Source: Lentisphaeria bacterium (GTDB taxonomy: Bacteria; Verrucomicrobiota; Lentisphaeria; Victivallales; Victivallaceae). Taken from it: a stretch of 64,000 bases of DNA. The notes under the pieces were generated by a model. It made no database searches. It saw only the letters and a program-made list of their open reading frames with translations, and was not told where the DNA came from. The stretch spans positions 1 through 64,000 of the forward strand of contig JAFTJQ010000004.1 in NCBI GenBank assembly GCA_017456285.1. Direction: 5' to 3'. Shown here piece by piece: positions 39,436 to 48,449 of the stretch (the stretch's first letter is position 1; the number at the start of each line of letters is the position of its first letter). A program made the translations under genes and the position numbers.

Positions 39436-40599
39436 ATGGAAAAGAAAATTCAAAATTGTCAAACCTGTGACGGTGATTGCGAGAACTGTTACCCTGAGGA
39501 CTTTCAAAAAGTCCTCAGTAAAAAACAGAGTTTTCTGATTTTGCTTGTTATTGCCATTATCGGCACCGTTATCGGATATTTGCAATCAAAGCAAGAACCG
39601 AAAACGGCAATGACCAAGGAAGAAACTAAACTTGTTTCAGAAAGCACCGCAGAGTCATTGCACCAGCAATTCTTTATCATGGGAACGATTTTTGACTGCA
39701 CCTTTTTTGATAAAGATGTTGCCAAAAGAGAGAATGCCCGCAATGCTGTATTAGCTGAACTCAAACGGATAGAGACTCTCTGCAATATTTTTGATAATAA
39801 GAGTGAAATTTATCAACTCAATTCTCAAGCTCATGTGAAGCCATTTAAGTGCAGCAATGAACTTTGGGAAATTCTGCAAAAATCACGCTGGGCATACGAA
39901 ATAAGCGATGGCAATTTTGATATAAGTGCTAAAGTTCTAATGGATTTGTGGGGTTTTTACCGCAAGCAGGATAAAGTTCCGAGCGACAAAGAAATTGCCG
40001 ATGCCTTGAAATTCGTCGGATTGGAAAAAGTCGTTTTTGATGATCAGGCAAAAACTGTCTTTTTTAGCGAAAAAGGTTTCGCATTTGATTTGGGCGGTAT
40101 CGCCAAAGGAATCGCAGTTGACAAGGCAATGAAAAGTGCAGAGAAGTTTAATTTGGACGGAATTTTGATTAACCTCGGCGGCAATATCAGCTGTTACGGC
40201 AAAACTCCCCCCTATGACAATTACTCTGTCGCCATCAGAAATCCACTCAAAAAAGACGATTTTGCTAAAGTTATCACTCTCTCAAATGAATCAGTGGCAA
40301 CCAGCGGAAATTATGAGCGTTTCGTCAAAATCGGCGACAAAACTTATTCGCATATTATGAATGTCAAAAACGGCAGACCCGTTGAAAATGTTTTGAGCGT
40401 AACCGTAGTTACAAAATCTGCAGGTGATGCCGATATTTTCTCAACAGCGACTTTTATCGGCGGAGAAGAATATGCAAAAAAACTCGTCTCGCTCTATCCT
40501 GATTTAAGAATTTATGCTTTCACTCTCGATAAAGAGAAAAATGTTGTTTATAAAGAGTTTAATAATGAAACTATCAAAAATAAAGAGGTACAAAAATGA
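39436..40599 (+). CDS. apbE: FAD:protein FMN transferase (ApbE) with N-terminal Cys cluster
   Basis: Covalently attaches FMN to threonine of Rnf/Nqr-type and related flavoproteins in the periplasm. The 387-residue protein has a short cytoplasmic N-terminus with C8, C11, C15 and C18 (CQTCDGDCENC), a transmembrane segment (SFLILLVIAIIGTVIGYLQ), then the ApbE domain with FFIMGTIFDCTFF, FAFDLGGIAKGIAVDKA, ILINLGGNISCYG, and SVATSGNYERF followed by YSHIMNVKNGRP. The N-terminal Cys cluster is not usual in ApbE. It overlaps lpxA by four bases. Confidence 0.93.
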   Translation: MEKKIQNCQTCDGDCENCYPEDFQKVLSKKQSFLILLVIAIIGTVIGYLQSKQEPKTAMTKEETKLVSESTAESLHQQFFIMGTIFDCTFFDKDVAKRENARNAVLAELKRIETLCNIFDNKSEIYQLNSQAHVKPFKCSNELWEILQKSRWAYEISDGNFDISAKVLMDLWGFYRKQDKVPSDKEIADALKFVGLEKVVFDDQAKTVFFSEKGFAFDLGGIAKGIAVDKAMKSAEKFNLDGILINLGGNISCYGKTPPYDNYSVAIRNPLKKDDFAKVITLSNESVATSGNYERFVKIGDKTYSHIMNVKNGRPVENVLSVTVVTKSAGDADIFSTATFIGGEEYAKKLVSLYPDLRIYAFTLDKEKNVVYKEFNNETIKNKEVQK

Positions 40600-41390
40600 T
40601 CCATCCAACAAGTGTTATCGCTGAAGGGGCTGTCATCGCTGATGACGTCGAAATCGGGCCGTTGTGTTATGTCGGACCGCACGTCAAAATCGGTAAAGGC
40701 TGCAAACTTATCTCTCACTGCAACATCGATGGCTACACAACTATCGGTGAAAACAATGTATTTCACCCATTTTCTGCTATCGGTCAAGCAGCTCAAGACC
40801 ACAGCGTAAAAGATTCCGACATCAGTTATGTCGAAATCGGCAACGATAATATTTTCCGTGAAAGCACAACCATTCACTCTGCCACCGGTAACGGCAATAT
40901 TACCAAAATCGGCAATCACTGCATGTTCATGGCAGGTTCACACGTTGCCCACAATGGTATTATCGGTAACAATGTGATTTTTGTAAATGCTGCGGTATTG
41001 GGCGGTTACGGTGAAGTTCACGACAATGCGATTATTTCAGGATTGTCAGCAATTCATCAATTCTGTCGTGTCGGCAAATTTGCAATGATTTCAGGCGGTT
41101 CGGCATTTTCTAAAGATGTGCCTCCGTTTATGATGGCAGAGGGCAGAAACGGCGGAGTAAAAATGATTAACCTCGTCGGTTTGAAACGCAACGGCTTCAC
41201 CAATGAACAAATTCACAACATCAAAGAAATGTTCAGAATTTACTATCGCAGCATGCTTGCTCCCTCAAATGCGTTGAAAAAAATCGAGGAAGAACTCCCC
41301 CATACAGAAGAAGTTATGGAGTTTATCAACTTCTGCAAAACATCTAAAAAAGGTGTAATCGCTGCCAAAGTTGACGGACACAGAGCGTAA
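40596..41390 (+). CDS. lpxA: UDP-N-acetylglucosamine acyltransferase
   Basis: Transfers a 3-hydroxyacyl chain to UDP-GlcNAc, the first step of lipid A synthesis. The 264-residue protein is a left-handed beta-helix (repeats such as GPLCYVGPHVKIGKGC) with the catalytic His in AGSHVAHNGIIGNN and a C-terminal helical domain starting NLVGLKRNGF. Length and motifs match LpxA, supporting a Gram-negative envelope. It overlaps apbE by ATGA. lpxB, lpxC and lpxD are not in the window. Confidence 0.95.
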   Translation: MIHPTSVIAEGAVIADDVEIGPLCYVGPHVKIGKGCKLISHCNIDGYTTIGENNVFHPFSAIGQAAQDHSVKDSDISYVEIGNDNIFRESTTIHSATGNGNITKIGNHCMFMAGSHVAHNGIIGNNVIFVNAAVLGGYGEVHDNAIISGLSAIHQFCRVGKFAMISGGSAFSKDVPPFMMAEGRNGGVKMINLVGLKRNGFTNEQIHNIKEMFRIYYRSMLAPSNALKKIEEELPHTEEVMEFINFCKTSKKGVIAAKVDGHRA

Positions 41391-41447
41391 TAGTCAATTA
41401 AAAATACAACAATTTAATAAAATATTTAACCATAAAAGGAAAATACA

Positions 41448-43097
41448 ATGTTAAAATTAGAAAAAAATCCCGCTTTCTCAAAGCGTAAAGGTCCCGTCGT
41501 TTTAGCAATTTTGGACGGAGTCGGCTTCGGAAAATATGCGGACGGCGATGCCGTCCTCAATGCTTACACCCCCGAACTTGACAACTTGATGAAAACTTGC
41601 CCCTTCACACAACTCAAAGCTCACGGTACTGCCGTCGGCATGCCCTCTGATGCGGATATGGGCAATAGTGAAGTAGGTCACAATGCTATCGGTTGCGGAC
41701 GAGTTTTCTCTCAAGGGGCGAAACTTGTTGACGATGCAGTCACTTCTAAAAAACTTTTCGAGGGCGAAACTTGGAAAAAATTGGTAAAAAATGCAATTGA
41801 CAACAACTCAACTTTGCACTTTTTAGGACTCTTCTCTGACGGTAACGTCCATAGCAACATCAATCACCTCAAAGCAATGGTTGCAGAAGCAAAAAATGCC
41901 GGAGTAAAAAAGGTTCGTATTCATGCACTTTTGGACGGTCGTGACGTCCCTGAAACTTCTGCTTTGGACTATGTTGTTCCTTTTGAAGAATTTTTAGCAT
42001 CTTTGAATGATGCAAACTTCGATGCTAAAATCGCTTCAGGCGGCGGTCGCATGGTTATTACCATGGATAGATACGGTGCTAACTGGGATATGGTTCGTCA
42101 GGGCTGGGAAATTCACGTTCACGGCAACGGCGAAATGTTCACAAGTGCTGAAGAAGCAATCAAAACTTTGCGTGAGCGTACTGGTGCAATCGATCAAGAT
42201 CTTCCTGCTTTCGTTATCAGCGAAGACGGCGTAAACCCGGTCGGCAAAATGAATGACAATGATTCAGTTATCTACTTCAACTTCCGTGGTGACCGAGCTT
42301 TGGAAATCACTGCCGCTTTTGAGAATGACGATCTCCCCTACTTCGATCGCGGAGTAAGACCTGCGGTGATGTATGCAGGTATGATGGAGTATGACGGCGA
42401 CTTGCATCAGCCGAAACTTTTCCTCGTTAATCCGCCGGAAATCGACCGCACCGTCGGCGAATATTTGTGCAGTGCAAATATGAAACAATTGGCAATCAGC
42501 GAAACCCAGAAATTCGGACACGTTACCTATTTCTTCAATGGAAATAAATCAGGCAAGTTCAATGATACTCTCGAAGATTACGTTGAAATCAAATCCGACA
42601 TCGTTCCTTTCGAACAGCGTCCGTGGATGAAAGCGGCGGAAATTACCGATGAGGTTGTAAGTGCAATTGCAAGCGGCAAATATGATATGATTCGCCTCAA
42701 TCTCGCTAATGGTGATATGGTCGGACATACCGGTGATTATCAGGCGGTTTTGGTTGCTATGGGTGCAGTTGATATTTGCGTCAAACGCATTCGTGAAGCA
42801 GTCGAAAAAGCAGGTGGTATCCTCGTTATCAGTGCTGACCACGGCAATGCGGATGATATGCTTGAACATGACAAAAAAGGTAATCTCGTAGTTGACGGCG
42901 ATGGTCAGGCAGCTCGTAAAACCAGTCACTCACTTAACAAAGTTCCCTGCATTATTTTTGATGCAGATTATCAGAATGATTATGAACTCACACTCAATGA
43001 AAATTTGGGAATCAGTTCACTTGGTGCAACTTGCATTGAACTTCTCGGCTTCAAAGCTCCGGAAGGCTATGACAAAAGCATTATCAATCTGAAATAA
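41448..43097 (+). CDS. gpmI: 2,3-bisphosphoglycerate-independent phosphoglycerate mutase
   Basis: Interconverts 3- and 2-phosphoglycerate in glycolysis using two manganese ions. The 549-residue enzyme opens the phosphatase domain with VVLAILDGVGFG, has the catalytic serine in DADMGNSEVGHNAIG, and the metal block ISADHGNADDM. The transferase insertion lies between. The sequence TSHSLNKVPCIIF near the C-terminus is typical. It lies between lpxA and the hydrolase/acyltransferase gene, separated from the latter by 16 bases. Confidence 0.96.
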   Translation: MLKLEKNPAFSKRKGPVVLAILDGVGFGKYADGDAVLNAYTPELDNLMKTCPFTQLKAHGTAVGMPSDADMGNSEVGHNAIGCGRVFSQGAKLVDDAVTSKKLFEGETWKKLVKNAIDNNSTLHFLGLFSDGNVHSNINHLKAMVAEAKNAGVKKVRIHALLDGRDVPETSALDYVVPFEEFLASLNDANFDAKIASGGGRMVITMDRYGANWDMVRQGWEIHVHGNGEMFTSAEEAIKTLRERTGAIDQDLPAFVISEDGVNPVGKMNDNDSVIYFNFRGDRALEITAAFENDDLPYFDRGVRPAVMYAGMMEYDGDLHQPKLFLVNPPEIDRTVGEYLCSANMKQLAISETQKFGHVTYFFNGNKSGKFNDTLEDYVEIKSDIVPFEQRPWMKAAEITDEVVSAIASGKYDMIRLNLANGDMVGHTGDYQAVLVAMGAVDICVKRIREAVEKAGGILVISADHGNADDMLEHDKKGNLVVDGDGQAARKTSHSLNKVPCIIFDADYQNDYELTLNENLGISSLGATCIELLGFKAPEGYDKSIINLK

Positions 43098-43113: not shown

Positions 43114-45654
43114 ATGGAGTATGAAGTGAGGCAAGTTGATTCAACTTTAGAAATTACCCTGCCGGGGGAATCTGAAAAACTGAAAATTGCATATTTTGAC
43201 AGCAAAATCGGTTCACAGATTCTTTTAGTGGTACCGGGATTTGCTTCATGCTCTGCTGCTTGGGAGTATTTTTGTAATTTTATTCCACCCGAATATCGCA
43301 TTATTCGGGTGGAATTTGATTTCAAAAACGAGAAATTTCGCCTCAATCAGGCGGAAATTTTTCTGCAAGTTATAAAGGGACTCGAACTAAAAAAATTCTC
43401 AATTGTTGCACATTCAAACGGGTGTGCGGAGAGTTTAAAAATTGCGGAGCAACTCCCGAATAACATCAATATCGAACACCTGATTTTTATTAATCCTCTA
43501 ATCGGTTTTTCGGGCGACGGAGATTTTTGCCGCACTTTGGCAAATTACAATGAAAATAATCCGCTGGTCAGATTCGCCAGCGAAGATATTTGTGCCTATA
43601 TTATGCTGAAGGAATTATTCTCAAGTGAGAAATCCATTTCCGCCGATTTTACAAAAATTTATGCCGACTGTTTACAACAGGACGGAGCAAAGGAGTTTCT
43701 GATTAGAGAAGCAAAAAAAATTACAAATTTCAACCACAAAAACTTATCAAAAATTATCGAAAAAATCAATATCCCGTGTCTGATTATTTCCGGGAATAAC
43801 GACAAAATTACTTCGCCGGACAATGGCAGAAAACTGCAAAAACAAATCGAAAATTCTGAACTTAAAATTATCAATAGTTGCGGTCACTTGTCGATTTTGG
43901 AGGCACCGGAGAAAACTGCAAAAAACATTCACAAATTTGTAAGTAAATCAATCGCTGTTGCAGATAATCAATGCGAAAAACAGAAATCAGAAAAACATGA
44001 GAATGATAACTTTGACAATATCTCCAAACAGCAACTTCACATGCGGAATTTAATTGAAAATTGGTCATTCGGATCAATGGTTATTTTGCTTTTCCTAAAA
44101 TTCATCCAACTGCTCAAAAAATGCGGTCTGAAAGCCAGTGATAACGGCTGGCGAAAAGCAACGGGAATTTTCTTACAAAATGAGGAATCGAAGTTCACTC
44201 TCGGTTCATTTAATTTAAAGTATTACCTTGACCCCAACAACATCCCCCCGACCATAGATGATGCTAAAACACTTTTTATCAGCAGAATGCGTGACTATCT
44301 ACAGCACAAAAGCAACTTGCATTGGGCGATTGAACCGACACTTTTTCACTTGAAAAGAAAAAAACTTAATGTTACCGATATTATCGAAACAACCTTTGAT
44401 GAAAATGGCGAATTAATTAAACTTACTCCGCATTTTGATAGTGCCAGAGCAAGTTTTGACAGTTTATCGCCAACTGATATGGAGATGTTTTTCACCCACT
44501 TCATCTACTACTACAACAAACTAAAAAGGAAAAAGGTCAATAGCATTGCCCGCAAAATGACCTCTCACCTCAAACGCTGGTACTTACGCCGACGTGCGTT
44601 AAGTTTCAATGCCAAACTTGACTTAAAGGAGTTAATTGAACGGGTACTTACGGCAACATTTATCACCTTTGAAATACTTCCGGATCGGAACAATCCGAAA
44701 TTTATGCGGAAAAAATTCGCCGCTCCGAATGTGAAAAAATATCGCCACCCCGGCTGGGGGTTGCTTAATATGATCGTCCGATTCACCCCCGATCTGCAAA
44801 GTGCAGATTTATGGGTGCAATACCATCATGTCCCGGTTGACGGCATGCCGATGCAGGAGCTGCTGGAGGAGTTAAAAAAACGTTGGGGGTACACCGAAGA
44901 ATTGGTCTATCCGAACTTAACAAACCACGACAGTTCTCCTGAAATTTATTACAGCGGCGGCAAAATTTTTCGAGCCAGAATGTTTGTTGATTTCTCTAAA
45001 TTGCTGAATTTCAGGAAATTTTTAAATGAAAACTATCGACAAGCAATGAATGGTGAAGCCAGTATTGCTAGTTTAATTATCTGGGGTCTTGCCCAATCCG
45101 AGAGTTTCCGCAATGCCAAAGTTCTGTTTCCGATTGACATTGAGCAAGGGGTTCGCTTCGCAGATGAGCGAGAATTGAGTGTGCTTTTAATTCGCCCCGC
45201 TAAATATTTTGACACCAACGATAAATTTGCAGGCTTTCTGCGTTATCAAAGGGAATTTAATCGCCGCCTGACAGACACGAGATTGGGCAACAGCGAGAGT
45301 TATGAGATGCTGGAACTTTACTCCAGAGTGCATCCGATATTTTATTATTTGGCAAGGGATTTTTTCAAAGAATCCGTTTCAGAATATCTGGGCAACATGG
45401 GCTTATCGATGATGAAAAATGCCGAGATGTTCATCTCGCCGATTTCCGATTTGCAGAAAAACGGATTTCTGGCATTCGGCAATATGAATGTGCCGACAGC
45501 TGACGGCAAAAAAGCAGGTGCTGTAAGCATTTGCGGTTCTCGTCAGGAGATAAAATCCTACATCGCCGCCATAAGTTATTTAGCGGAAAATTTTGAAAAG
45601 TTTTTTGATATTGACATACAACTTAATAAATCAGGAGAGATAAAAAATGATTAA
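43114..45654 (+). CDS. Alpha/beta-hydrolase fused to HHxxxDG acyltransferase-like domain
   Basis: An 846-residue two-domain protein that I cannot place in a named family. Residues 1-280 are an alpha/beta-hydrolase: VVPGFASCSAAWEYF, nucleophile Ser101 in VAHSNGCAES, Asp230 in SGNNDKIT and His258 in SCGHLS, so the triad is complete. A charged linker (about 281-312) and a hydrophobic helix (MVILLFLKFIQLL) follow. Residues 340-830 look like a condensation/chloramphenicol-acetyltransferase fold: QYHHVPVDGMPM carries HHxxxDG at 571-577, and AFGNMNVP near 787 stands where a DFGWG-like motif is expected. It may make or transfer an acyl group on a lipid or sugar; the substrate is unknown. It overlaps the cupin gene by 8 bases and shares the run with lpxA and ftsA-ftsZ. 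Confidence 0.7.
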   Translation: MEYEVRQVDSTLEITLPGESEKLKIAYFDSKIGSQILLVVPGFASCSAAWEYFCNFIPPEYRIIRVEFDFKNEKFRLNQAEIFLQVIKGLELKKFSIVAHSNGCAESLKIAEQLPNNINIEHLIFINPLIGFSGDGDFCRTLANYNENNPLVRFASEDICAYIMLKELFSSEKSISADFTKIYADCLQQDGAKEFLIREAKKITNFNHKNLSKIIEKINIPCLIISGNNDKITSPDNGRKLQKQIENSELKIINSCGHLSILEAPEKTAKNIHKFVSKSIAVADNQCEKQKSEKHENDNFDNISKQQLHMRNLIENWSFGSMVILLFLKFIQLLKKCGLKASDNGWRKATGIFLQNEESKFTLGSFNLKYYLDPNNIPPTIDDAKTLFISRMRDYLQHKSNLHWAIEPTLFHLKRKKLNVTDIIETTFDENGELIKLTPHFDSARASFDSLSPTDMEMFFTHFIYYYNKLKRKKVNSIARKMTSHLKRWYLRRRALSFNAKLDLKELIERVLTATFITFEILPDRNNPKFMRKKFAAPNVKKYRHPGWGLLNMIVRFTPDLQSADLWVQYHHVPVDGMPMQELLEELKKRWGYTEELVYPNLTNHDSSPEIYYSGGKIFRARMFVDFSKLLNFRKFLNENYRQAMNGEASIASLIIWGLAQSESFRNAKVLFPIDIEQGVRFADERELSVLLIRPAKYFDTNDKFAGFLRYQREFNRRLTDTRLGNSESYEMLELYSRVHPIFYYLARDFFKESVSEYLGNMGLSMMKNAEMFISPISDLQKNGFLAFGNMNVPTADGKKAGAVSICGSRQEIKSYIAAISYLAENFEKFFDIDIQLNKSGEIKND

Positions 45655-45994
45655 ACGAGACCAGTCCTACAAATTTGAAATCCGTGAGAATATGCGTGGC
45701 GGTAATGGCAATGTAAAAATTGAACACCTTTTTGACTATCAAAATGACTTAAAATCATCTCCGAGATTGCTTGCTAAATTAACTTTGGAGCCGGGGGTAT
45801 CAATCGGATTCCATGAGCATTTCGGTGAAGAAGAAGTTTTCCATATAATCAAAGGAACTGCCGAATTTTTTGACGGCAAAGATACCTGCATCCTCAAAAG
45901 CGGAGACTCTGCTCTGACTTCAAATGCCGGACACTCTCTGGCAAATATCGGGGATGATATTCTCGAAGTTATGGCAGTTATTTTGAAATTCTAA
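45647..45994 (+). CDS. Small cupin protein
   Basis: A 115-residue single-domain cupin. The first metal motif reads GFHEHFGEEEVFHIIKG (G, H, H, E and G at the expected spacing) and the second region is GDSALTSNAGHSLANIGDD, with the third His ligand. The Asp/Glu and His set would bind one metal ion. It overlaps the hydrolase/acyltransferase gene by 8 bases, so it is translationally coupled and probably helps in the same pathway. Cupins of this size are sensors, isomerases or oxygenases; nothing here decides. Confidence 0.85.
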   Translation: MIKRDQSYKFEIRENMRGGNGNVKIEHLFDYQNDLKSSPRLLAKLTLEPGVSIGFHEHFGEEEVFHIIKGTAEFFDGKDTCILKSGDSALTSNAGHSLANIGDDILEVMAVILKF

Positions 45995-46026: not shown

Positions 46027-47289
46027 ATGGCAAAAATCCGAGAAAATTTTGTCGGAACTTTGGACATCGGCTCAAATAAATGCTGTGTGCTTTTCGGCTT
46101 GTCACGCTCCAACGACGAACTGGAGATTATCGGTTTCGGCGAAGCAAAATCCGACGGATCGGTATTAAAAGGTGACATCCTCGATATGGAATTATTGATG
46201 AATCAGCTCACATTGGCTCTCAATGATGCAGAGCAAATGGCAAATATTTCAATTAATGAAAGTTCTATAACTACCGTAAATATCAGCGGTACTACCATGA
46301 GTTTCATTCCGAGTGTCGGTTCAGTAACTATCAAAAATGCTGACCAGCGAATTACGGAAGATGATTACAATGAAGCTCTGGAAAATGCGGAACGTTTTAA
46401 TATGCCTGAAAATAAAAGCCACTTAGGCACATTTGAGTCGTACTCAGTTATTAATAATTCAAAAAAAACCGCCGCCCCGATCGGGCAATCAGCAAATAAA
46501 CTTGATGTACATACGCTTTTGCAATTCGTCGGCGTAAATGAATTAAAAAACACTAAACACCTGATGGCAGATTTGGGCATTGAAGAAAACAATGTGGATT
46601 ATATTTTCAGCGGAATCTGCGGTTTGTACGGCTGTTTGTCTGAAAGCGAACGAAAAAACGGTTCAATTTTTATCGATTTAGGTGCAGGAACTACCGAATT
46701 TGTGGTTGTCAATAATTATATAATTACTGCCGCAGGGGTATTACCACTGGGCATGGATCATGTAATTAACGACCTCTCGCTCGGCTTGAAGTTACCGATG
46801 TCGATCTGCCGCAATTTGGTTGAAAGCGGTCAATTGGAGCAACTTCTGAAAAGCAATGAAACATTCTGGGAGTATGAAATTAACCGAACAAAATATCGAA
46901 TTCCGAGCCACACAATTGAATTAATTGTCAATGCCAGATTGCAGGAAATTTTTGAGTTAATGAAAATTCAAATTTACCGCAACAATGCCCACTGCGATAT
47001 TGAGGCAGGCGGTATTTTAATCGGCGGCGGTGCATTACTCAGCCGCAACCATGAAATTTTCCGCAACACCTTTGACTGCAATTGCCGAACCGGACGGGCG
47101 ATCGGGATGACCGGGAATATCGGGAACTTGTCAACTCCGCAATACGGCACAACTTACGGATTATTAAAAATGGCACATGCCTACAGCATGCGGAGTAAAC
47201 TGCCGAATAAAAACCACAATCCCGTAACTATTGCTGTAGATAAATTCATTCAAATGTTCTCAAAAGTAAAGGATTCTGTAAAATTATGA
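46027..47289 (+). CDS. ftsA: Cell division protein FtsA
   Basis: Actin-like ATPase that tethers FtsZ to the membrane and recruits later division proteins. The 420-residue product starts with a phosphate loop GTLDIGSNKCCVLFG, has the second loop IDLGAGTTEFVVV near residue 212 and the adenosine-binding GGILIGGGALLS near 325. The last residues (DKFIQMFSKVKDSVKL) can form the membrane-binding amphipathic helix. The SHS2-like subdomain 1C is present (about 85-160) but divergent. It overlaps ftsZ by four bases. Another actin-like protein is unlikely. Confidence 0.88.
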   Translation: MAKIRENFVGTLDIGSNKCCVLFGLSRSNDELEIIGFGEAKSDGSVLKGDILDMELLMNQLTLALNDAEQMANISINESSITTVNISGTTMSFIPSVGSVTIKNADQRITEDDYNEALENAERFNMPENKSHLGTFESYSVINNSKKTAAPIGQSANKLDVHTLLQFVGVNELKNTKHLMADLGIEENNVDYIFSGICGLYGCLSESERKNGSIFIDLGAGTTEFVVVNNYIITAAGVLPLGMDHVINDLSLGLKLPMSICRNLVESGQLEQLLKSNETFWEYEINRTKYRIPSHTIELIVNARLQEIFELMKIQIYRNNAHCDIEAGGILIGGGALLSRNHEIFRNTFDCNCRTGRAIGMTGNIGNLSTPQYGTTYGLLKMAHAYSMRSKLPNKNHNPVTIAVDKFIQMFSKVKDSVKL

Positions 47290-48449
47290 GCGATAAAAAA
47301 ATCGGTATTGTCGGTATCGGAAAAGCCGGAATTAATATTGTCAGCACCCTGCATAATTTGAGGCAGGCACAGCACTTCACGCTGATGGCAATTGATACAG
47401 ATAAGGAATCATTGCAGCAATCTCCGATTACCGAAACAAATAAGTTGCTTTTAGGTAATGATTGGCGTCAGGGCAATGGCTGCGGCGGAGATATGACCGC
47501 AGGAGGTCGAGTTTTCAGTCATGAGCGAAGCAAATTAAATCAATTTTTGGGCGGGTATGATCTACTGTTTTTTGCAGGCGGTCTCGGTCGTGGGACGGCT
47601 TCAGGCGGAGTTTCAATTATCGCAAGCGAACTATCTAAAATGAAAATTCCTGCAATTTTTGTCCTTACCTTGCCGTTTGTAATGGAGGGGCCCGCTAAAA
47701 ATCGGGCGGCTGAAAATATTTTGAAATCTGAAATCCACGAAAGAAACAATGTAATTATCACAATTCCTAATGATCTGCTTTTCTCTAAATTGGATTCCAA
47801 TTGCACCCTCAATGAAGCATTTGAACTATCAAATATCGAGGTGGCAAAATCACTGCTGGCTTTAGCACTTTGCTTTTCGGGTGGCAATCTTTTAGCGGCG
47901 AACTATGCTGATTTATTGGAAATTGTAGCCCAAAAGAAACATTTTGCCGCTATCGGGATCGGTACTGCGTCTGCGAAAGACGGCGAAAACCGATTCAATC
48001 GGGCGTTAGAGAAAATGCTTATGTCGCCCTTGCTCGGCGGTTTGGATAAATTACAAGAAGCCGATGCCCTTATTGTATCACTTATCGGCGGAAACTCCCT
48101 CGGTGCGGCAGATACCAAATATTTGCTTGAGAAAGTTAATTCCTTCGTCGGAGAAAATACTAATTTAGCGGTTAATTTCAGTACCAATGAGGATTTCGGA
48201 GAATCAATTATGCTCTCTGTAATTGCAATCAAATTCGACAAGTCAGCAATGGAGGATAAAATTTTCACCCAACAAATCCCCACTACTCCGTCATCTAAAA
48301 AACGCAGAAACGATAAAGATAATGGGCAGGCAAGTTTGGACTTAGTTTTCAATGAACGTGGAATTTTTGAAAAAACCAATATAAATTACCACGAGGGTGT
48401 CGACTTGGATATTCCGGCTTACCAACGCAAAAATATCAACCTGAAATAA
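47286..48449 (+). CDS. ftsZ: Divergent tubulin-like division protein FtsZ
   Basis: FtsZ polymerises with GTP to form the division ring. The 387-residue product aligns with FtsZ along its length: N-terminal VGIGKAGINIV, ITIPNDLLFSK, GTASAKDGENRFNRALEKML, and the C-terminal peptide DLDIPAYQRK that binds FtsA. But the GTP signature GGGTGTG reads GRGTASG at 101-107, and in the T7 loop AxNYAD (204-209) the residues matching Asn207 and Asp209 of E. coli are Ala and Asn; only the last Asp is kept. GTP hydrolysis may be weak or differently organised. A second, canonical FtsZ elsewhere cannot be excluded. Confidence 0.88.
   Translation: MSDKKIGIVGIGKAGINIVSTLHNLRQAQHFTLMAIDTDKESLQQSPITETNKLLLGNDWRQGNGCGGDMTAGGRVFSHERSKLNQFLGGYDLLFFAGGLGRGTASGGVSIIASELSKMKIPAIFVLTLPFVMEGPAKNRAAENILKSEIHERNNVIITIPNDLLFSKLDSNCTLNEAFELSNIEVAKSLLALALCFSGGNLLAANYADLLEIVAQKKHFAAIGIGTASAKDGENRFNRALEKMLMSPLLGGLDKLQEADALIVSLIGGNSLGAADTKYLLEKVNSFVGENTNLAVNFSTNEDFGESIMLSVIAIKFDKSAMEDKIFTQQIPTTPSSKKRRNDKDNGQASLDLVFNERGIFEKTNINYHEGVDLDIPAYQRKNINLK

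Follow-up and report, generated by a model that had tools for sequence, protein, structure and literature searches.

We found that a gene at positions 43,114–45,654 of the window (forward strand, as are all features below; the window is the whole 64,000-nucleotide stretch of DNA analysed) encodes an alpha/beta-hydrolase fused to a CoA-acyltransferase-like domain, as read from the open reading frame, Pfam, alignment and a structure model. The predicted fold supports membership of the C-terminal half in the HxxxDG (CAT/BAHD/carnitine acyltransferase) superfamily, within an unnamed family. This C half would define an acyltransferase family that has no Pfam or NCBIfam model and is tied by co-inheritance to a bacterial LCAT-family lipoprotein. 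The chances seem to us evenly balanced that the two genes serve a split acylation of envelope lipids, the fusion acting as a cytosolic, membrane-associated lipid acyltransferase and the LCAT protein as an extracytoplasmic transacylase. As far as we found, they form an undescribed two-gene pair: no paper on them turned up in a literature search whose coverage largely excluded subscription journals.

Architecture of the fusion protein

The 846-residue reading frame is real, and Ser101, Asp230, His258 and the HHVPVDG motif lie where the preliminary description had placed them. Its N-terminal assignment also holds: the hydrolase domain (residues 9–283; 43,138–43,962) matches Pfam Abhydrolase_1 (PF00561) with 39.5 bits against a cut-off of 25.8 (E 6.5e-10), and profile, fold and a Ser-Asp-His triad agree. 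The predicted nucleophile Ser101, in the sequence AHSNGC (43,414–43,416), is a serine in 30 of 32 aligned fusions, and the other triad residues, Asp230 (43,801–43,803) and His258 (43,885–43,887), are invariant in all 32. The nearest solved proteins to the N-half family profile are the monoacylglycerol lipase ABHD6 (E 2.3e-34) and the phospholipase A PlaF (E 8.2e-33), both membrane lipases, and Foldseek with the full-chain model ranked ABHD6 first as well (E 2.5e-15). In contrast to these two enzymes, the hydrolase half is part of a fusion, and some relatives have lost the serine. The window's copy is also shortened: in the alignment, a loop that follows the central strands and is retained by most relatives is partly missing from it. 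An NCBIfam match of this half to the O-acyltransferase OlsI was set aside, as it scored 39 bits, far below the cut-off of 385.

A charged linker (residues about 284–305; 43,963–44,028), modelled with pLDDT below 50 and highly variable in length and sequence, leads into the acyltransferase domain (residues 306–846; 44,029–45,651). Near the start of that domain is a hydrophobic, amphipathic helix, WSFGSMVILLFLKFIQLLKK (residues 317–336; 44,062–44,121; moment 0.38), so that linker and helix are both present as had been proposed. The helix is the site of the most hydrophobic 18-mer in the fusion protein, and stand-alone homologues of the C half start at the equivalent helix, which forms their N-terminus. 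It likely serves as the membrane contact of the fusion.

The C half of the window's protein has no match in Pfam, NCBIfam or PHROGs, and nothing meaningful was found among PDB sequences with either the single sequence or a 39-row profile. The 39 members gave no match at E up to 1 to the Pfam models for WS/DGAT, BAHD, Carn_acyltransf and CAT; two of them gave weak matches to Condensation (PF00668; best E 0.002). Because the full-chain fold search returned the hydrolase half only, the C half was modelled alone (AF2, 45 aligned sequences), with a mean pLDDT of 89.8 and a pTM of 0.89. The best 50 PDB matches listed by Foldseek for this model are all HxxxDG acyltransferases (E 3e-10 to 8e-8; best E 3.3e-10 at a TM-score of about 0.5), led by carnitine palmitoyltransferase 2, carnitine octanoyltransferase, BAHD enzymes and carnitine/choline acetyltransferases, with condensation-type domains (C/E/Cy) of nonribosomal peptide synthetases (NRPS) coming after them and TRI3 also in the list. 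TM-scores against the solved relatives are 0.3–0.5, with large rmsd and about 8–13 percent identity; on the model, the lobes may be differently arranged than in those relatives, or else they are poorly aligned. The modest scores and large rmsd thus place the C half in the superfamily and not in any one subfamily.

The active-site motif agrees with this placement. HHVPVDG (residues 571–577; 44,824–44,844) lies where a strand ends, ahead of a helix (strand 259–266 and helix 273–286 of the C-half model), as it does elsewhere in the superfamily. In all complete homologues the second His, the Asp and the Gly are never lost, and the first His may be H, N, S or Q; among the 32 aligned fusions, D230, H258, H572, D576 and G577 are invariant and H571 is kept in 30. 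An invariant H572 beside a variable H571 fits a role of the second His as the base. Judged from the alignment, conservation of the triad and the motif is confirmed to exceed chance across the 32 fusions. Predicted fold and invariant residues together bear out the earlier reading of this half as an HHxxxDG-superfamily acyltransferase.

Compared with known enzymes, the C half shares a predicted fold and the HxxxDG motif with CPT2, CrAT, ChAT and BAHD proteins, but adds a predicted N-terminal membrane helix and a long N-lobe, and has no Pfam-level match to them. With WS/DGAT it shares the HHxxxDG superfamily but again no Pfam match, and WS/DGAT is not among the best 50 fold matches listed. The nearest design is that of the phytyl ester synthases PES1 and PES2, plant enzymes of the ELT family that combine an esterase/lipase with a DGAT2/LPLAT-like acyltransferase in one protein (PMC12048435). 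They likewise join a hydrolase and an acyltransferase in one chain; the C half of the fusion, however, has the HxxxDG fold and no DGAT2/LPLAT-type Pfam match. That no named family has the order hydrolase followed by HHxxxDG domain holds for the libraries searched.

Distribution, gene context and loss of the hydrolase half

The C half occurs in 38 of 289 sampled genomes of the phylum, every one of them in the window's order, and a more sensitive profile applied to 388 sampled phylum genomes found it in 54, again solely in that order. Among 137 genomes of the order, 68 carry it. The named carriers belong to Victivallales/Lentisphaerota and include Victivallis vadensis DSM 14823 and strain zth2; carriers come from many habitats, gut and sediment among them. 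The domain order, hydrolase followed by acyltransferase, is conserved across most of Victivallales, which supports the preliminary description on this point. The viral contigs and plasmids searched hold no relatives of the fusion. A 6-kb contig titled Desulfomonile (L054) carries the C half and is the sole match outside Lentisphaerota by title; a further gene family on it also occurs at a Victivallales locus, and the contig is probably a mis-binned Lentisphaerota one.

In the window the fusion is preceded by lpxA and gpmI (40,596–43,097; lpxA above its curated cut-off, the gpmI product read from sequence) and followed by a cupin gene (45,647–45,994; Cupin_2, E 5.6e-11) and by ftsA and a divergent ftsZ (46,027–48,449; ftsA passes its cut-off, and ftsZ falls far short of its own but can be recognised). 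All the named neighbours are therefore present, and the fusion and cupin genes do overlap by 8 bases, the cupin ATG lying at 45,647 and the fusion stop ending at 45,654. The preliminary description had taken the lpxA and ftsA-ftsZ surroundings as a clue to function and asked whether the gene order is conserved in Lentisphaerota. We found the order lpxA-gpmI-fusion-cupin-ftsA-ftsZ elsewhere only within the same genus (L032, genome G327). A third genome of that genus, G326, has the string ileS-apbE-lpxA-gpmI-cupin-ftsA-ftsZ, in which cupin directly follows gpmI (L149), and in the neighbourhoods read from all other families the lpxA/cupin/fts context is absent around the fusion. In two further genera checked, gpmI adjoins lpxA and the fusion is located elsewhere. 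Co-occurrence with lpxA was rejected as evidence, because every one of the 137 genomes of the order has the gene, so that it carries no information, whereas the fusion is present in about half. The context thus fails as a functional clue, and the lpxA-cupin-ftsA-ftsZ setting of the fusion is incidental. The cupin probably lies outside the fusion system too, because it stands between gpmI and ftsA in the fusion-less G326.

Several features of these loci deserve mention in their own right. The fusion-less site with the whole gene string (L149:5929-13942) can be used for a comparison of insertion with loss. The window's FtsZ (47,286–48,449), the sole FtsZ found in the genome, scores 144.9 bits against a TIGR00065 cut-off of 295.2 and has an altered tubulin signature, AGGLGRGTASGG. 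The genome also has two full-length lpxA-like genes, at 40,599–41,357 of the window and at G000:C11:25780-26535, each scoring over the TIGR01852 cut-off; a second copy is also seen in several other genomes of the order.

The two halves of the fusion appear to evolve differently. Identity to the window's protein is about 24–35 percent for the N half against 36–55 percent for the C half, so that by sequence the N half diverges much faster. The nucleophile Ser is replaced by Gly in g19, g20 and g166 and by Phe in G135, and the hydrolase half is missing altogether in g15, g24, g33, G055 and G350. On a tree of 60 C halves, its absence corresponds to about five separate changes. Loci of the hydrolase-less members, fetched wide, contain no hydrolase of the same family within roughly 8 kb on either side; unlinked halves, which would have spoken against the fusion as a unit, were not seen, and the hydrolase half was lost and not moved. 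Comparison of these lineages suggests that this half is optional and dispensable, not essential. The series lets a fused enzyme be seen losing one half stepwise, apparently the nucleophile first and then the domain.

The LCAT-family partner gene

When neighbours were clustered across loci, one family recurred next to the fusion: a lipobox-bearing protein of about 500 residues that Pfam assigns to the LCAT family (PF02450). This family includes the makers of cholesterol esters in blood as well as eukaryotic PDAT. Some members of the partner family score just under the Pfam cut-off; the copy in the window's genome, which is unlinked to the fusion (G000:C65, locus L079), clears the cut-off of 21 bits with 38. 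The putative triad Ser236-Asp440-His479 (HSMGG, GDG and HMG motifs) and a DWR motif show no variation across the 25 aligned sequences, and the lipobox Cys is present in 24 of them. The partner thus shares the family HMM match and a Ser-Asp-His triad with LCAT, PDAT and lysosomal phospholipase A2, but differs from these in being bacterial, lipobox-bearing and about 500 residues long.

The LCAT gene is present in 64 of the 68 genomes with the C half and in 2 of the 69 without it. Over the 137 genomes, 64 have both genes, 4 the C half only, 2 the LCAT gene only and 67 neither (Fisher p 1.8e-31, a value that overstates the association because the genomes are related and not independent). The C half without a detectable LCAT gene occurs in G002, G040 and G067 (as a fusion) and in G325 (as a fragment only); the converse occurs in G296 and G322, both less than 80 percent complete. 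Within the mixed genera g1, g15, g20 and g166 the two genes are jointly present or absent with zero exceptions, and g2 has two exceptions. Squalene-cyclase-like genes, a similarly patchy control, occur in 28 of 68 genomes with the C half against 12 of 69 without.

In 34 genomes the two genes are neighbours that share a strand, with either one coming first; across the 33 adjacent pairs measured, the matches lie a median of 63 bases apart. In 30 genomes, the window's own included, they are unlinked. Where the hydrolase half is not active, the LCAT gene is adjacent in 27 of 30 genomes; where it is intact, in 7 of 32, a striking difference but one drawn from few clades. The LCAT-family lipoprotein gene is a better-supported partner of the fusion than the lpxA/cupin/fts context. 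In the window's genome the LCAT gene is preceded, at a distance of 48 bases, by a fabF-like gene for a beta-ketoacyl synthase (L079:604-1872), and such a gene also adjoins LCAT at another locus of this genus (L118). Two conserved upstream genes, of families F1 and F2, mark a second kind of LCAT locus (L089, L091, L093, L110 and L114).

Possible roles of the pair

We infer the acyl chemistry, lipid substrate, order of steps and compartments of the fusion/LCAT pathway as follows. The fusion would be cytosolic and membrane-bound, as suggested by the hydrophobic helix at 317–336 and by N-termini that show no signal peptide when read by eye, and the lipobox Cys would place the LCAT protein on the extracytoplasmic side. 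The C half, with His572 as the expected general base, would use an acyl thioester (CoA or ACP) as donor and attach its acyl chain to a lipid or glycolipid acceptor, at a hydroxyl or an amino group. An active hydrolase half would probably have an accessory role, trimming the acceptor or a wrong product in deacylation/reacylation remodelling or proofreading. The acylated lipid would then cross the membrane, and outside it the LCAT-family lipoprotein (L079 in the window's genome) would move acyl chains between lipids without CoA. As for an exporter in such a pathway, the MMPL family is found in each of the 137 genomes and is hence uninformative. A hopanoid or sterol acceptor was dropped: a squalene cyclase above cut-off occurs in none of the 137 genomes, and the weak matches in 40 are only loosely associated with the C half.

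Split envelope-lipid acylation has to be weighed against other readings of the same proteins. The C half might make wax esters or triacylglycerol for storage, with the hydrolase mobilising them and the LCAT protein acting like PDAT with a phospholipid donor; the HHxxxDG superfamily includes WS/DGAT, the hydrolase half is close to ABHD6 and the LCAT family includes PDAT. This we consider unlikely, since 0 of 39 C-half members match the WS/DGAT models at E up to 1, and the lipoprotein signal would put the LCAT partner outside the compartment where storage droplets form. That the best fold matches are carnitine palmitoyl- and octanoyltransferases would instead suit a catabolic shuttle, with the C half passing acyl groups from CoA to a small carrier or back while hydrolases feed it from host or dietary lipids; an outer lipase-like lipoprotein and a cytosolic lipase-like domain would fit lipid uptake. 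However, 0 of 39 members match Carn_acyltransf by sequence, members come from many habitats and the hydrolase half is dispensable, which leaves the shuttle a distinctly unlikely reading.

The preliminary description suggested that the hydrolase could release or edit the acyl donor of the second half in a lipid- or envelope-related pathway, taken here as one linked to lipid A or to division and marked by lpxA and ftsA-ftsZ. The fusion of two domains in one protein, the triad intact in most members (the window's included) and the lpxA and fts genes beside the fusion in the window and in G327 speak for it. An obligatory role as supplier or editor is weakened, because several lineages keep the acyltransferase with a Ser-less or absent hydrolase, and the loci fetched wide show no neighbouring substitute of the same family within about 8 kb; moreover, G326 keeps the string of neighbours although it lacks the fusion, the context is missing in all other families and lpxA is universal. 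We rate this reading as improbable. Least credible is a condensation enzyme, stand-alone and NRPS C-like, making a peptide or secondary metabolite with the hydrolase as thioesterase: it draws on the weak Condensation matches (2 of 39 members, best E 0.002) and on the NRPS C domains among the fold matches, but no adenylation or carrier-protein genes were noted in the neighbourhoods read and a linked LCAT lipoprotein does not fit.

Split envelope-lipid acylation is favoured for its likeness to a mycobacterial system. PapA proteins belong to the HxxxDG superfamily. In Mycobacterium tuberculosis, PapA3 and Chp2 divide the work across the membrane: synthesis of diacyltrehalose takes place on its cytosolic side, and a CoA-independent transesterification by Chp2 follows outside (PMC4183827). 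There, and with PapA/Chp1, in the assembly of acyltrehaloses and sulfolipids, an HxxxDG enzyme is likewise paired with a transacylase of alpha/beta-hydrolase fold. The likeness comes without a demonstrated sequence relation. In our case, a genetic link between the two genes was found and the inside/outside topology was deduced from N-termini; the second gene codes for an LCAT-family lipoprotein and not for a cutinase-like protein such as Chp; the acyltransferase is itself fused to a hydrolase domain; and no dedicated MmpL was found.

More tentatively, and with some doubt, we suggest that the new HxxxDG family, most often fused to a domain of membrane-lipase type, and the LCAT-type outer lipoprotein form an undescribed two-compartment pathway of Victivallales that makes an acylated envelope lipid. 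Such a pathway would be a bacterial counterpart of LCAT/PDAT chemistry and a convergent parallel to PapA/Chp, and deletion of either gene would leave one lipid product missing; V. vadensis DSM 14823 and Lentisphaerota strain zth2 are cultivable members. Hydrolase halves with Gly in place of the nucleophile Ser are found at L071, L074, L062, L121 and L122. Asp and His are kept, as read by eye, in L062, L071 and L074, so that the Ser-to-Gly domain may keep a binding role.
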